From positions 1-22,620 of the IMG/VR virus record IMGVR_UViG_3300042539_001655: a DNA stretch of 22,620 bases. One strand, written 5' to 3'. A program made the translations under genes and the position numbers. This document shows positions 2,372 through 21,556 of the stretch, in pieces; the first letter of the stretch is position 1; each line of letters begins with the position of its first letter. Source of the stretch: a virus. Under the pieces are notes generated by a model. That model made no database searches and was not told the DNA's origin. It worked only from the letters and a program-made list of their open reading frames with translations.

Positions 2372-4673
2372 CTTGTGCTCCTTTTTGGGCTAATTTCGCT
2401 TGATCGATGGCCACGTCGTTGGCTTCTTTCTGCTGATCGAAGGCCAACCGCTGCTGATCCATTGCAATCCGGGCTTGATCGCGCTGTCCGGCCTGGGCGA
2501 TCTCCTGCTTCTTGAGCTCCACCAGCGGATCGCTCTGGTCGCCTGCCAGCTGCGACTGCAATTGCTTGACTTCCTGGAAGTACTGGGCCACTTTCAGGGC
2601 CACCATCGCCTCGCGCTGCAGCGCCGACACCAGTTTTTCAGGGTCCGTGCCGTACTGCTGGAACAACTCGGCCTCCACGGCCTCTTCCGCTTTCAAGCGG
2701 ATGTGGTCAAACACGTGCTTTTGCAGCGTCATCGCCACCTGTGGCACAGACGCAACAATCGGCGACATGCCAAACAGCAGGTGCGTCATGATGTGCGCGT
2801 CGTGCTGCTGGCCAGCAAAGGCCTTGAGCGGCGATCCGTCCAGCGCCTGTGAGTTCTCACTGGCCGGATCCTTGGGCTTGTCCACATTCTGCGTGTTCAG
2901 GATCTGGTCGATATCCCGCACGCCGATGGCCTCGTACATCCGGCGGTACGCCTCGTACATGTTGTGCATCTGCGGCGCGCTCTGCGCAAGCTGCAGCTGC
3001 GTCTGCGCCATGGTGATGCGCTGCGCCACCGAGAAAATGTTGGGGTCCGACACCGGCAGCACGTCAATCCGGTCGTCGAAGTCCCGCGCCTTGATGAAGC
3101 GGCTCTCGCCAGGCACGTCGTACGGGTACTGCGGCGGCAAGTACTCCGCAAAGCCCTGCGCCAAGAGCTGGAACTCCAGCTTCTGCGCATAGTGCAGGCG
3201 CTTGTGGATGGCCGACATGACGGCCGAGCCCTTCTCCAGCAACGCAATCGTCGTGCCCACAGCAGCGTTCTGATTGCTGTCGCCCACCTGCATGTCCGTG
3301 ATGCTCGACAGACGCCGGCCGGCATCCACACAGAAGCCCAGCAGCGCGAACAGCGTCTGGCTCGGCTCCTTGTACGGCAGCGGCAGCAACGACGCATTGA
3401 TCTCCGCGCCGCCCGTATCAATGTCCCGGAACTCACCAGGCTGCAGCGGCATGTCGTCGTTCATGATCCGCGCGCCCTTGGCCTTGAAGCCCGCTGGCAG
3501 GTTCGCCAGCGTGCCCGCGTCGATCAACTGCTGCAGCGCAGCCGACGAGGTCTTGCTCAAGCCACCGACCAGATGCAGGAAGCCCAAGCCATACGCACCG
3601 GGGCCCTGGACCAGCAGGTAATGCACGTAGTACTGCTTGCGACGATAAAGCTCGTCGCCCTGCTTCCAGTTGCGGCGGATGCCCACCACGTGATTCGTGA
3701 CCTCATCGATGGTCACGATGTACGGCAGCTTGATGCCCGTGGCCTCGCCGTCTTCCTTGTGCTCGAAGCCCGGCAGGTCATAGTCAACCTGGAACTCCAA
3801 CAGCACGATCTCTTCATCGTCGCCCCCCGTGGGCACGATGCCCACCACGCGGTCCTGTTCCTTCTGGATCACGTTCTGGCTTGTCTCAGCCACGGCCTGC
3901 GCCTGGGCGGTGTCCAAGTACTGGCCGCGGACCACGGCGCGCCGGTAGGCATTCACGGGCATCGTCACGCGGTGCGTGATCCGCGCGCATTCGCTCATGA
4001 CGCTTGAACCGTTGTACGGGATGTACAGATCCTCCGGCAGGATCAAGGCGCTCGTCATGCGGCCCTTGTCCTCGCAGTAGTACACCTTGCGGAAGGCCGA
4101 GCCGCCATAGCCCACGTAGAACAGCAACTGGTCGAAGTCCGGCGTGTACTCCTCCATCACCGTGGTGATCTGGTAATTCATGAAGTCACGCACGCGCTCG
4201 GCCTGCATCAACTTCTCGCGCGTCTCCTTGCCCAGGACCTGCGTGCGCACAGGGCCGCCCGCGGGCATGAGCTCCTTCAGCGCCTGCGCCTGGAACTGCA
4301 CCACGCTCTCGGTCAGCAAGGGATGCTGAACGGGGCACGCGCCCTTGAACGGCTTGGTGCGCTCCTCGAACGAGAAGCCCAGCAGCTTCAGGCCCTTGCC
4401 GTACTGGTCTTCCCACTGCTTGCGCGAAGACTTGTCTGCCTCGAACAGCGCCATCAGCTCCGCGGACATGCTCTGCAAGACTGACGGATCGACGACCTCA
4501 GCAAGGTTGCTGTCGAAGGGGACCTTGTCGTCCTCCTCCGGTCCGATGCCGACCACCACCTCGCCCGTCTTGGCGTCAAACTCGACGCTGATGTCAGGCA
4601 GGTTCTCTTCTACCTCGATGGCCACATCGCCCGCAGGCAGGTCGTCAATCGTGACGTTCTTTTCAATAGGCAT
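2319..4673 (-). CDS. portal protein
   Basis: A 784-residue protein that forms the dodecameric DNA channel at one head vertex. Recognition rests on the family-like stretch with SRKQWEDQYGKGLKLLGFSF, PFKGACPVQHPLL and VQFQAQALKELMPAGG, followed by a long core with the YVGYGGSAFRKVYY segment. Position between the terminase/transglycosylase genes and the scaffold-capsid genes agrees. The first 60 residues are acidic. The last 130 residues are a Gln/Ala/Lys-rich predicted coiled coil, as in barrel-type tails of large portals of the P22/N4 size class. Start ATG follows AAGGA. The 3' end overlaps a 44-residue gene. Confidence 0.88.
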   Translation of the reverse strand: MPIEKNVTIDDLPAGDVAIEVEENLPDISVEFDAKTGEVVVGIGPEEDDKVPFDSNLAEVVDPSVLQSMSAELMALFEADKSSRKQWEDQYGKGLKLLGFSFEERTKPFKGACPVQHPLLTESVVQFQAQALKELMPAGGPVRTQVLGKETREKLMQAERVRDFMNYQITTVMEEYTPDFDQLLFYVGYGGSAFRKVYYCEDKGRMTSALILPEDLYIPYNGSSVMSECARITHRVTMPVNAYRRAVVRGQYLDTAQAQAVAETSQNVIQKEQDRVVGIVPTGGDDEEIVLLEFQVDYDLPGFEHKEDGEATGIKLPYIVTIDEVTNHVVGIRRNWKQGDELYRRKQYYVHYLLVQGPGAYGLGFLHLVGGLSKTSSAALQQLIDAGTLANLPAGFKAKGARIMNDDMPLQPGEFRDIDTGGAEINASLLPLPYKEPSQTLFALLGFCVDAGRRLSSITDMQVGDSNQNAAVGTTIALLEKGSAVMSAIHKRLHYAQKLEFQLLAQGFAEYLPPQYPYDVPGESRFIKARDFDDRIDVLPVSDPNIFSVAQRITMAQTQLQLAQSAPQMHNMYEAYRRMYEAIGVRDIDQILNTQNVDKPKDPASENSQALDGSPLKAFAGQQHDAHIMTHLLFGMSPIVASVPQVAMTLQKHVFDHIRLKAEEAVEAELFQQYGTDPEKLVSALQREAMVALKVAQYFQEVKQLQSQLAGDQSDPLVELKKQEIAQAGQRDQARIAMDQQRLAFDQQKEANDVAIDQAKLAQKGAQDAQKARQIGTQGAQRGA

Positions 4674-16038: not shown

Positions 16039-16450
16039 GCATATGCAGCCGCACCAGCTCCCACGGGATCTGCGTCCAGGGCCATGCTGCCAACGGGACA
16101 GTGTCAATGCCCCGCATGGACAGTTCCACTGCCTGTTCGCCGGCATACAGGCGCAGCTCAGAGTGGCTGGTGCGAGTCGCTCCTGGCGGGAAATACTGCA
16201 CCAGGATGTAGGTCGGGCAGTTCATGTCGGCGTGCTTGGCATGAAAGCTCACCTGGTGCGGCGACAGAGCGACCTTGCGCCCGCGTCGCACTACCTTCAG
16301 CTCCACCATCACAAACTCGCCCGGCACCTTGAACGCTACCAGGCAGTCCGGGATGCCCAGGTTCACCCGGGATTCAATCCGGGTAATGTGGCAGGCTGGC
16401 AGGTTTTCCTTCAATCTCTGATAAAGCCCGCTTTCTGGCTTCGATGGCAT
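16022..16450 (-). CDS. VRR-NUC-like nuclease (PD-(D/E)XK fold)
   Basis: A 142-residue protein with the signature of small phage VRR-NUC nucleases: E6 in PESGLYQRL, then GIPDCLVAF with D35, then VELK with E50 and K52, followed by Q66 in SPHQVSFH. PD-X14-ELK with a following Gln is the active site pattern of this family, which cuts DNA using divalent metal. Family members in phages are Holliday-junction or flap-type nucleases, so replication-intermediate processing before packaging is a reasonable guess. The gene starts within the 3' end of the small terminase gene in another frame (77-base overlap), so the two are coupled. Confidence 0.85.
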   Translation of the reverse strand: MPSKPESGLYQRLKENLPACHITRIESRVNLGIPDCLVAFKVPGEFVMVELKVVRRGRKVALSPHQVSFHAKHADMNCPTYILVQYFPPGATRTSHSELRLYAGEQAVELSMRGIDTVPLAAWPWTQIPWELVRLHMLDAVD

Positions 16451-17129
16451 CTTCGCCCTCCTTAATTGCCTGGCGAGTTATATCCCGCAGCTGCCTGCCT
16501 TCTTCCGACCAAGGATCTTCCGCATAGTCACGGGGTTTCTTTGGCGCCGGTAATTCCGGTTTCACATCCGCTGCCTGCTCAATTTCCTTGGGCGTTACGT
16601 CAATAACCCTACCTGGGTCGCCATACAGACGCTTTATTTCCTCCAGCTTGCGCATGACCTCTTCCTTACTCATGGAATCAATCGTGCCGTGCCGGATTTC
16701 CTTGCGGTCAATATAAATCGTGCCCAGTGCCTGGCCGCGGCGATATTCTGCCTGGACAGCAGCACCATATGCCCCTGCCTGCAGCGCCAGGTCACGGATA
16801 TTCTGCAGATCCCGCATATGCCGTTCCATGGTCGTGCCAAACCGCTCGGCCATATCCTTGCGCAGCTCCTGAATCGCGGCAACGACATGGGGATTCTTTT
16901 CCGGGTTGGTCAGCAGCCTGGCCGACTCCTTCGCCGTCTTGGCAGGCCAGCCGGCCCGGATGGCCGCCTCGGCCATGGTCACCTGGCCATCGCCCATGAC
17001 CAGCTCTTGAACGAACTTCCACTGCTTGGGCGTCAGCACCCTCTTCTTGGTGACTGTGACGGGAGTACGCAGCTTGTCCTCCAACAAGGGGCTATGCCCC
17101 CGGGGCATCTTCGGCAGCTTCGTTGCCAT
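16374..17129 (-). CDS. terminase small subunit
   Basis: A 251-residue DNA-recognition subunit of the packaging motor. Residues about 32-95 match the Terminase_2 type DNA-binding region: LTPKQWKFVQELV, then EAAIRAGWPAKTAKESARLL and NPHVVAAIQELR. A helical middle (about 95-150) probably drives ring formation. Residues about 150-180, with SMSKEEVMRKLEEIKRLYG, resemble the segment that contacts the large subunit. The charged C-terminal tail is rich in Lys/Glu. Start ATG follows AGGAG. It lies directly downstream of the AT-rich non-coding segment at 17142-17522, which may hold its recognition site, and 7.4 kb from the large subunit gene. Confidence 0.87.
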   Translation of the reverse strand: MATKLPKMPRGHSPLLEDKLRTPVTVTKKRVLTPKQWKFVQELVMGDGQVTMAEAAIRAGWPAKTAKESARLLTNPEKNPHVVAAIQELRKDMAERFGTTMERHMRDLQNIRDLALQAGAYGAAVQAEYRRGQALGTIYIDRKEIRHGTIDSMSKEEVMRKLEEIKRLYGDPGRVIDVTPKEIEQAADVKPELPAPKKPRDYAEDPWSEEGRQLRDITRQAIKEGEDAIEARKRALSEIEGKPASLPHYPD

Positions 17130-17178
17130 GTTTGCTCCTAAAAGTGGTACCTAGTAGAAACCCGCACCGTTTTTGGCC

Positions 17179-17203
17179 TTTTAGTAGACTTTTTTAGGGT
17201 CAA
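17179..17203 (-). repeat. inverted repeat, arm 1 (25 bp)
   Basis: Read on the minus strand, this arm is identical over 25 bases to the plus strand at 17369-17393. It begins TTGACCCTAAAAAAG and contains GTCTACTA. Similarity continues with mismatches through CAAAAACG and GCGGG for about 15 more bases outward. Confidence 0.9.
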
Positions 17204-17368
17204 TGAAAAAAAAAAAACAAAAAAATGTCCCGCGCGCGCATTTTATAAGAAATTACACCTGTAGAAGACACGTAATGTACCGTGTAGCTCTAACACGTTG
17301 ATTTCATTCACTTCTTACACCATTACGTCTATTACGTCATTTTTCAAAAACTTTTCACACAAACACAC

Positions 17369-17393
17369 TTGACCCTAAAAAAGTCTACTAAAA
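17369..17393 (+). repeat. inverted repeat, arm 2 (25 bp)
   Basis: This arm is the exact inverted partner of 17179-17203. The two are separated by 165 bases of AT-rich DNA. They point outward in mirror orientation, as expected for paired protein-binding sites around an origin or a packaging start, or for a remnant of inversion. Confidence 0.9.
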
Positions 17394-17522
17394 CGGCAAA
17401 AACGCTACGGGAAAACCCTCGAAAGACCCGCGATCCGCGGTCCTCGGCCCTTTTTGCCCTCTCCACCCCCTCTGAACCTGACTCGAACCTGACAGTGCCC
17501 GGCTCCCGTCCCAACACCCCCC

Positions 17523-17753
17523 TCACTGCTCCATCCCCCGCCACCACACGCCTGTTCCGTTGTCGCCGTCGGCGCTGACGAACTTGGCGGCGAGGGTCGC
17601 GGGGATGACTTCGCCGGCCTCGAAGGCTTCGAGGTTACCGGCTTCCATGCCCATTTCTGGGAGGTGGGTGACGGGGCCGATGAGGGTGTAGGTCGCTCCG
17701 CCCATGGTGACGAAGTACAGCTGGACCATGGGCGGGAGCGAGGAGAGGTTCAT
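17523..17753 (-). CDS. small phage protein, function unknown (76 aa)
   Basis: A 76-residue protein starting MNLSSLPPMVQLYFVTMGGA. Strand-like segments (VQLYFVTM, ATYTLIG) precede an acidic middle (about 32-50), and the end is Gly- and Trp-rich (GVWWRGMEQ). It starts 4 bases after the DUF3310 stop and has no clear ribosome binding site, so translational coupling is likely. It is the last gene before the AT-rich segment. The function is unknown. Confidence 0.72.
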   Translation of the reverse strand: MNLSSLPPMVQLYFVTMGGATYTLIGPVTHLPEMGMEAGNLEAFEAGEVIPATLAAKFVSADGDNGTGVWWRGMEQ

Positions 17754-17757
17754 CTTG

Positions 17758-18237
17758 TTAGACGATGGGGGAGGTTTTTTCCTGGAGTTCGATTTCGCGC
17801 TGGAGGTACCAGGCGGCCTTTTTGATGTCTTCCAGGTAATCCTTTTTGTAGGGTGCCCGGGAGATGTATTTCACGGCGTTGGCCAGGTGGTAATGATTAT
17901 GCAGGCCTTTGGCTTCGATGAAATCGATGGTTTCAATGCCGCCTATTGTGTAGTGCGGGGGGTGGTTGACGTTGTCCACGGGCCGCGGTTCGCGGATATC
18001 GATGGATTGCACGCCGGGCAGGGAATCCAGGAGGGAGTGGATTTTGTCGATATTGACGCCGATTTCTAGGGGGCTGTCGAGGTCCTTTTCCTCTTGTTTT
18101 GCGGCCAGGCGGTCTTTGTTTTCCTTGACCAGGCGGTAGGCCATGGGCAGCGAGGCGCCGAATTTGGCGTGGATATCGCGTGCGGTGGCGTCGGGGTTTT
18201 TGGCCAGGTAGGCGCGGACTTTTTTGGAGATGGTCAT
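17758..18237 (-). CDS. DUF3310 protein with N-terminal helix-turn-helix-like region (159 aa)
   Basis: A 159-residue protein. Residues about 1-45 resemble a small winged or helix-turn-helix segment, with VRAYLAKNPDATARDIHAKF. Residues about 92-150 read as DUF3310: VNHPPHYTIGGIETIDFIEA, then a helical stretch with HYHLANAVKYISRAPYKKD and KKAAWYLQREIE. DUF3310 proteins are common in phages and plasmids, often called SaV-like or nucleotide kinase by annotation transfer, but the biochemical role is not established. The start is the ATG overlapping the Tad2-like stop as ATGA (18234-18237). A longer frame to 18456 overlaps the Tad2-like gene and is rejected. Confidence 0.87.
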   Translation of the reverse strand: MTISKKVRAYLAKNPDATARDIHAKFGASLPMAYRLVKENKDRLAAKQEEKDLDSPLEIGVNIDKIHSLLDSLPGVQSIDIREPRPVDNVNHPPHYTIGGIETIDFIEAKGLHNHYHLANAVKYISRAPYKKDYLEDIKKAAWYLQREIELQEKTSPIV

Positions 18238-18482
18238 TTCGGAGTTCCTTGTTGCGTGTCGGCAGTTGGGATGACGGCGATCCAATCCTCTGCCAACACG
18301 TCGTCGGAGGATGGTGCCCAGGGAAAGTGGCTCACGGCGGAGTGGAAGGTGATGCCGCTGCGGCTGGTGGGGTCGCGCAGGACGTAGGCCCCGGCCCACG
18401 TTGCGCGGGCCACGGGTTGTGAGCGTTTGAGGTAGGGCAGTGCTTCGGCGAAGCACATGCGCCCGGTTGCGGCGTCGTACAT
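18234..18482 (-). CDS. DUF2829/Tad2-like protein, possible anti-defence factor (82 aa)
   Basis: An 82-residue protein that reads as DUF2829: CFAEALPYLKRSQPVARATW at 10-29, a central strand pair around residue 33-50, and the closing PWAPSSDDVLAEDWIAV at 54-70. DUF2829 includes Tad2, which binds and sequesters the cyclic ADP-ribose signal made by Thoeris immunity; some family members also bind CBASS cyclic nucleotides. Typical members are about 80-100 residues. The tail after DWIAV is short and Thr/Gln-rich. The ATG is 4 bases after the stop of the upstream gene and has no ribosome binding site, so it is probably coupled. A start at Met9 cannot be excluded. Function as an anti-defence protein is inference from family. 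Confidence 0.72.
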   Translation of the reverse strand: MYDAATGRMCFAEALPYLKRSQPVARATWAGAYVLRDPTSRSGITFHSAVSHFPWAPSSDDVLAEDWIAVIPTADTQQGTPK

Positions 18483-18486
18483 GGGG

Positions 18487-18696
18487 CTAGAAGTTTTCGG
18501 TGTAGAACTCGTCGAGCAGATCGGCCAGCTCACTGGCGCTGAACTCGCCGCCTTCGCCGGCGTTGAGGCCGTGCTCGACGCAGATGAGGACTTTGCCGTT
18601 GCGGGGCTCGAAGATCCGCAGATCGCCCAGGAGGATGCTGGGGCGTTGCGGGGCGATGTGGATGTTGGAAAGATTGACAACAGGGTCGTTTTTCAC
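18487..18696 (-). CDS. small phage protein with GTG start, function unknown (69 aa)
   Basis: A 69-residue protein reading (V/M)KNDPVVNLSNIHIAPQRP at the start. A strand-rich first half (SILLGDLRIFEPRNGKVLICV) precedes a helical, acidic end, SELADLLDEFYTENF. The start is GTG, supported by AAAGGAG seven bases upstream within the leader module. It opens the operon that also encodes the Tad2-like and DUF3310 proteins. A start further upstream would pass the promoter. No family recognised. Confidence 0.78.
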   Translation of the reverse strand: MKNDPVVNLSNIHIAPQRPSILLGDLRIFEPRNGKVLICVEHGLNAGEGGEFSASELADLLDEFYTENF

Positions 18697-20996: not shown

Positions 20997-21337
20997 TCCT
21001 GCCCCCTTGCGCTAACAAATTCTTTGAGATGCAGCAGAGCGTGGTCGTAGCCTTCGGAAAACATGGGGTGACGCTCACGCTCCATGCCCATGAGTTCGTC
21101 AATCGTGTCGAGCACTGCCTCACGCTCGGCCAGACAGCAAGGCTTGTTCGGTTGGCCTTCCCGTATCTGCATCAAATCCATCAACTTCAGGTATCTGTTT
21201 TGCCATGGTGCTTCGACTTGCACGGCAACAAGGCGGGCGAAGCGTTCAAGTTCTGTTAAATACAAAATGCGACCTGTGTCGTATTCGTATGGCAACTTGG
21301 CCTCCCGCGCCAGTCGGATGATGTCTTCTCGGTTCAT
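20993..21337 (-). CDS. phage protein, function unknown (114 aa)
   Basis: A 114-residue protein starting MNREDIIRLAREAKLPYEYD. The N-terminus, with REDIIRLAREAG-like sequence and LTELERFARLVA, matches a recurring type of small phage protein. A middle helix has LKLMDLMQIREGQPNKPCCL, and the end is EFVSARGQE. The ATG follows GGAGG at 8 bases and overlaps the upstream 37-residue membrane protein by ATGA (21334-21337). An upstream extension to 21406 overlaps that gene and is rejected. The function is unknown. Confidence 0.82.
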   Translation of the reverse strand: MNREDIIRLAREAKLPYEYDTGRILYLTELERFARLVAVQVEAPWQNRYLKLMDLMQIREGQPNKPCCLAEREAVLDTIDELMGMERERHPMFSEGYDHALLHLKEFVSARGQE

Positions 21338-21447
21338 GTCAACCACCTCCACACCCAACCTGCCAGAACAATGATCGCCCACAAGAGGAACACACCCACT
21401 GCCCACTGGGCGCAGTAGACGAGGAAGTGTTTAATGAAGTCGGTCAT
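21334..21447 (-). CDS. very small membrane protein (37 aa)
   Basis: A 37-residue protein starting MTDFIKHFLVYCAQWAVGVF. A single membrane span (about residues 8-31) is followed by WVWRWLT. The short charged N-terminus and basic end suggest insertion in the inner membrane. GGAAGGA lies before the ATG, and the gene overlaps both neighbours (17 bases upstream, ATGA downstream). One of three adjacent one-span proteins. Possible roles are lysis control, superinfection exclusion or assembly of a membrane complex, none shown by sequence. Confidence 0.72.
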   Translation of the reverse strand: MTDFIKHFLVYCAQWAVGVFLLWAIIVLAGWVWRWLT

Positions 21448-21556
21448 GTCTGTCCTTCCACCATGCTTCAACGAAACCCCAGATGACGCCGCCGATGATG
21501 AGGCCAAGGATGGCCCAAAACAGGAACACCGGGGAAATTTCGCAGTCCCAGGTCAC
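21431..21556 (-). CDS. very small membrane protein with GTG start (41 aa)
   Basis: A 41-residue protein reading MTWDCEISPVFLFWAILGLI from a GTG start. One membrane span (about residues 9-30, with GLIIGGVIWGF) is followed by a charged tail, EAWWKDRHDRLH. The GTG overlaps the upstream stop as GTGA, after the repeated CAAGGGGGCAGA start element. The tail is His/Arg-rich and likely cytoplasmic. Function unknown. Confidence 0.7.
   Translation of the reverse strand: MTWDCEISPVFLFWAILGLIIGGVIWGFVEAWWKDRHDRLH

Follow-up and report, generated by a model that had tools for sequence, protein, structure and literature searches.

What role does a stretch of non-coding DNA play when it lies next to the small terminase gene of a phage and is framed by long, closely matching inverted repeats? 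Almost nothing is known about replication origins and packaging signals in abundant uncultured aquatic phages, and the island described here offers one alignable, single-copy cis element of simple anatomy in more than 200 related contigs of such phages. The window, that is the whole stretch of DNA analysed, is an IMG/VR virus record of 22,620 bp with a GC content of 60.2%. A preliminary description of the island left the choice between an origin, a pac/cos site and a control region. We found that it is a conserved non-coding single-copy cis-acting site, which agrees in kind with these proposals; an origin is favoured among these functions, and a fixed cos end is disfavoured.

The island and its neighborhood in the window

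The island had been described as non-coding and AT-rich from 17142 to 17522. It is non-coding, and the AT-rich part extends from 17142 to 17420 (GC 37.6% against 60.2% for the contig), whereas 17421-17522 is GC-rich (0.667), yet bears a heptad motif. The longest open frame in the AT-rich part spans no more than 42 codons, which disfavors a coding sequence. The two exact 25-nt inverted arms reported 165 bases apart were confirmed at 17179-17203 and 17369-17393, and the similarity does continue outward, the TerS-proximal arm reaching 17161-17203 and the TerS-distal arm 17369-17411 (minus strand, 43 nt, 91% complementary). Exact inverted repeats in 500 dinucleotide-model shuffles reached at most 13 nt for a 901-bp region and 14 nt for the island alone, against 25 observed. 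Between the arms lies the AT-rich core (17204-17368, minus strand, 34.5% GC).

The small terminase subunit gene TerS (16374-17129, minus strand; PF03592, E=8.8e-7) has the island directly upstream, as previously noted, and in relatives it is no more than 0.8 kb away from the core. The far border is occupied by a 76-aa ORF without family match (17523-17753, minus strand). The preliminary description placed the island between early and accessory genes, but it is flanked by TerS and late genes on one side and by small early-type genes on the other, including DUF3310 and Tad2-like genes. The Tad2-like domain protein lies close to the island at 18234-18680 (minus strand; PF11195, E=9.8e-10), and its family takes its name from a Thoeris anti-defence protein. 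TerL is located about 8 kb from the island. A small DUF7303-like gene separates the island from TerS in L018 (7750-7965) and, judging from the sequence, in several more relatives, and is absent there in the window.

A core shared by relatives of phage DSL-LC04

The TerL of the window is 75% identical to that of phage DSL-LC04 (OR003939), for which the family 'Dishuiviridae' has been proposed (PMC10611076), and about 58% identical to those of Pelagibacter phage HTVC027P and phage 023Pt_psg01. A TerS search gave 346 matching stretches in viral contigs, 80 of which were retained; around ten contigs belong to the same species or a near one. By BLAST, the core (17218-17377) keeps 72-83% identity in many contigs where TerS identity is down to 53-69%. 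A core profile was present in 227 of 291 loci, with one copy per locus except in L029; these loci were collected mostly via TerS or the iteron pattern, and frequencies among them are not frequencies in nature. TerS lies downstream of the core, on the same strand and within 778 bp, in 217 of the 218 loci showing both. This linkage is partly built in, TerS having served to retrieve many of the loci, and the order of genes is in any case conserved. Absence of the repeats in close relatives had been named as an observation that would speak against a function, and the site was found in nearly every relative whose contig spans the place. These comparisons identify the island as a cis element of the phage family of DSL-LC04 relatives. 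Within the species of the window (six contigs), the island shows one difference per 1,674 aligned bases (0.06%) against 1.5-3.3% for TerS and its neighbors, a pattern indicative of purifying selection on the island inside the species. A scan of GTDB genomes with TerS gave no relative, and a host is therefore not inferred.

The anatomy of the core was compared among 59 lineages, which are not independent of one another. On the TerS strand, their consensus reads TTTtTgaaAa.tG.cGTAATaGacGTAATGgtGTAAtAagt.AatgaaatCAatgggTTa.a.c.a.ACggta.aTTACag.......a.aggTGtAATT.ttatgggatgcgcGcGcG.....tttttt. Parts recurring in the family are three YGTAAT iterons, an ATCAAT..GTTA box, an inverted iteron, GTGTAATT, GCGCGCG and A/T tracts. 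In the window, three tandem iterons of the form YGTAA(T/G) follow each other in steps of 8-9 bp (GACGTAAT, GACGTAAT and GTGTAAG on the TerS strand; 17315-17338, minus strand), and the spacing of successive YGTAA is 8 or 9 bp in 110 cases from the 59 lineages. The ATTACGTC repeats reported earlier were found within this array at 17322 and 17331, and the ACGTAAT in opposite orientation was confirmed outside it (17270-17276, plus strand). A further iteron-like GGTGTAATT lies some 62 bp away from the tandem array (17251-17259, minus strand), and the consensus likewise contains one opposite TTAC plus one GTGTAATT about 62 bp on. The box appears in the window as ATCAACGTGTTA (17291-17302, minus strand; family form ATCAATGGGTTA). 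The long A run and the further motif of the centre also proved correct, as A12 at 17206-17217 (plus strand) and as CGCGCGCGC beside an A/T tract (17231-17239), with GCGCG present in 37 of 59 lineage cores. Several lineages have CTGGGG in place of an ATAAAAT stretch. The island thereby contains several short direct repeats in AT-rich non-coding DNA, as looked for in iteron origins.

Outside the arms, the GC-rich part carries a heptad-like array, GGGCCGAGGACCGCGGATCGCGGG (17426-17450, minus strand), whose motif GGNYCRNGG resembles tandem heptads bound by ribbon-helix-helix proteins. Among the 59 lineages this motif sits left of the distal arm and never right of the proximal arm (TerS-distal flanks 42/59, TerS-proximal flanks 0/59). 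Two loci depart from the usual arrangement. L029 has two cores in opposite orientation (27-152 and 3440-3568), 3.3 kb apart and 83% identical, representing either a chimera or a real second copy, and in L177 the heptad, arm and iterons at the contig end (7700-8350) are inverted relative to TerS, through either an assembly artefact or a true inversion. In G003 and L060, many GGTACTT/AAGTACC sites cluster around the island.

Arms that change together

By local alignment, counterparts of both arms were recognized in many of the 59 lineages, and the left flank of each locus was scored against the reverse-complemented right flanks of that locus and of every other locus. Complementarity averaged 13.5 within a locus and 8.9 between loci, and none of 20,000 permutations reached the within-locus mean. 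When core identity falls below 0.75, left-left and right-right similarity each drop to about 8-11, and the match within the locus stays at about 13.3. The letters of the arms thus differ between lineages yet keep matching within each locus, a point missed by the preliminary description, and the result is an evolutionary oddity, in which the core stays constant and the arms on either side of it vary jointly. The near relatives L154 and L222 differ by alterations of both arms in step, and DSL-LC04 has arms at the same place with wholly different letters. Pairing of the arms is not obligatory, because matching arms are weak or absent in about a third of the lineages; in L136 they are mixed and do not match. 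No third copy of the arms was found elsewhere in 18 long contigs or genomes, and genome-wide promoters or operators were consequently discarded as an explanation, no other copies being present in the 18 long contigs. A MITE or transposon remnant was likewise rejected, since each genome has a single copy, always at the same syntenic place, and the arms vary more than the core. An invertible switch was set aside, as 123 of 123 TerS-oriented loci run the same way, with the one contig end of L177 looking inverted.

A candidate replication origin and its alternatives

We consider it about an even bet (probability near 0.5) that the island is the replication origin of these phages. This reading is favored because of the architecture and, in some lineages only, a GC-skew minimum. 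The island combines iterons, an AT-rich core, A/T tracts and inverted arms in a single copy, which by comparison with known origins, such as the one of the PLE satellite, is the make-up of a replication origin. A phage- or host-encoded initiator would bind the tandem YGTAAT iterons and the A/T tracts beside them would melt; the matched arms, able to pair on exposed single strands, may then help to offer the opened core to primase and helicase or to delimit it, with forks departing both ways from the island. DSL-LC04 has genes for a family-A DNA polymerase, an archaeo-eukaryotic-type (AEP-like) primase and helicases; its deposited annotation names no DnaB. When twenty proteins of the window and eight from the DSL-LC04 replication region were scanned for known families, polymerase, primase and helicases were recovered, and no known initiator gene among these twenty plus eight; the window does not contain the replication genes. 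Against an origin, the adjacency to TerS in 217/218 loci is equally well explained by a packaging site.

The GC skew, proposed as a check in the preliminary description, agrees with an origin at the island in a minority of contigs. Of 19 contigs, 7 from about three clades (the window, G001, G004, G005, G014, G015 and G021) have the minimum of the detrended cumulative skew 211-371 bp from the core; in the other 12, including the complete genomes G002, G003, DSL-LC04, G011, G012 and G013, it does not fall at the core. In the lineage of the window, fourfold sites of one-strand genes change from -0.43/-0.45 to +0.11/+0.07 across the site. In the window's clade and in that of G004/G005, genes lie on one strand on both sides of the core, whereas in G014/G015/G021 the gene calls show none on the TerS strand immediately past the core, and a switch of gene strand may explain the skew change there. 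The gene calls behind this test come from a simple codon model made for this analysis. As a universal proof of the origin, GC skew was rejected, since it fails in most lineages.

Should the island be the origin, the arms might serve as a lineage tag, a flanking pair that is read as a pair and rewritten jointly in every lineage, which would let each phage type start replication on its own kind only; the reader could be, for example, an archaeo-eukaryotic-type primase or its loader acting on single-strand hairpins. We regard this extension as rather improbable.

Packaging provides another explanation, which we hold to be possible but unlikely: TerS would bind the iterons of a headful pac site, and packaging would start at or near the island. 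Just upstream of TerS is the classical place for pac sites, the island is immediately or almost immediately upstream in 217/218 loci, repeated binding sites suit an oligomeric TerS, and end-overlapping complete contigs suggest permuted genomes. A pac site does not need a large AT-rich core, arms found nowhere else or the skew switch of some lineages, and the TerS linkage is weak evidence for it given the conserved gene order and the many loci fetched through TerS. Contig ends are not enriched at one base, and their modest excess 0-70 bp upstream (12/227) could reflect breaks at homopolymers or hairpins. A fixed cos end at the island is disfavored because complete contigs with overlapping ends, about 61 kb long, begin at varied distances from it and run through it. 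Somewhat less probable still is a transcription control hub at the early/late boundary, with iterons and heptads as operators and arms as outward promoters or insulators, both arms tracking a changing regulator. Such a hub would fit the border between TerS/late genes and small early-type genes, the absence of called TerS-strand genes in the 6 kb beyond the island in G014, G015, G020 and G021, and the CTATAGG/CTACTAA-like sequence in which the arms end when read outward. HNH endonuclease genes beyond the far side are directed away from the island in L018 (7118-7420, minus strand) and DSL-LC04 (21118-21555), which also suits a hub. Yet a regulator's operators or promoters would be expected at further places, and the arms occur only at the island; the family-matched genes upstream in the window lie on the same strand, so that an outward promoter there would be antisense; and CTGGGG replaces the ATAAAAT stretch in several lineages. 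A search for a single-subunit RNA polymerase gave no match, but its positive control also failed to register.

The joint change of the arms invites two further explanations. A structured non-coding RNA, with the arms as a long stem and the core as its loop, would agree with the fold of 279 nt (z=-6.9) and with arms that vary in sequence and keep matching, but G-U-compatible mismatches are only weakly in excess (57 on the TerS strand against 38 on the other, with 169 transversions), mixed, non-matching arms occur in L136, and there is no Rfam match near the curated score; we consider it very improbable. A known RNA family was rejected, as Rfam scores do not exceed the curated cut-off and a loose threshold yields chance matches of plant miRNAs to the long hairpin. 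The matching could also be purely mutational and without function of its own, template switching at replication converting one arm to the other, which would produce the joint change seen between L154 and L222. This seems unlikely to us as the whole explanation, given the fixed position of the arms about the core and their strong conservation inside the species of the window, and conversion alone leaves the retention of the pair in most lineages unexplained. It concerns only the matching of the arms and is compatible with all other readings, the conserved core of which may still be an origin, pac site, hub or RNA; the degrees of confidence given here are accordingly not meant to sum to one.

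A literature search found no described element of this kind, and a broader one gave distant parallels only; by term search, neither PMC10611076 nor PMC9599517 mentions inverted repeats or intergenic elements. The RepA_N origin of the PLE satellite is a non-coding region with an iteron containing inverted repeats (PMC7145576). Like such iteron origins of plasmids and phage satellites, the island is a single non-coding site with short repeats, inverted repeats and poly-A tracts; unlike them, it has no RepA gene found with it, its iterons are 8-9 bp apart, its flanking arms change together between lineages and the small terminase gene is adjacent. Lambda-type cos/pac regions lie upstream of the small terminase gene and contain repeated short sites and an AT-rich stretch. 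The island shares these features, but has no fixed genome end, carries large matched arms and lies about 8 kb from TerL. Phage NrS-1 has an archaeo-eukaryotic-type primase(-polymerase) with the 8-nt recognition sequence TTTGGTTA (PMC8718748, PMC7102993). The end of the core box CAATRGGTTA resembles this NrS-1 site (PMC8718748), a lead only, based on a comparison of letters, and the likeness to the primase of DSL-LC04 is one of archaeo-eukaryotic type that does not imply close kinship of the enzymes. Gaps with inverted arms are also present upstream of TerS in DSL-LC04 (spacer 131) and in Pelagibacter phage HTVC023P (spacer 167). The gap of HTVC023P contains CTAGGAAA five times plus a GGACCACG motif, and its similarity to the island is suggestive, the iteron being unrelated in sequence and the arms hardly exceeding chance (2 of 100 shuffles did as well). 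The same gap contains GGACCACGAACCACGG, similar to the heptad-like array GGNYCRNGG.
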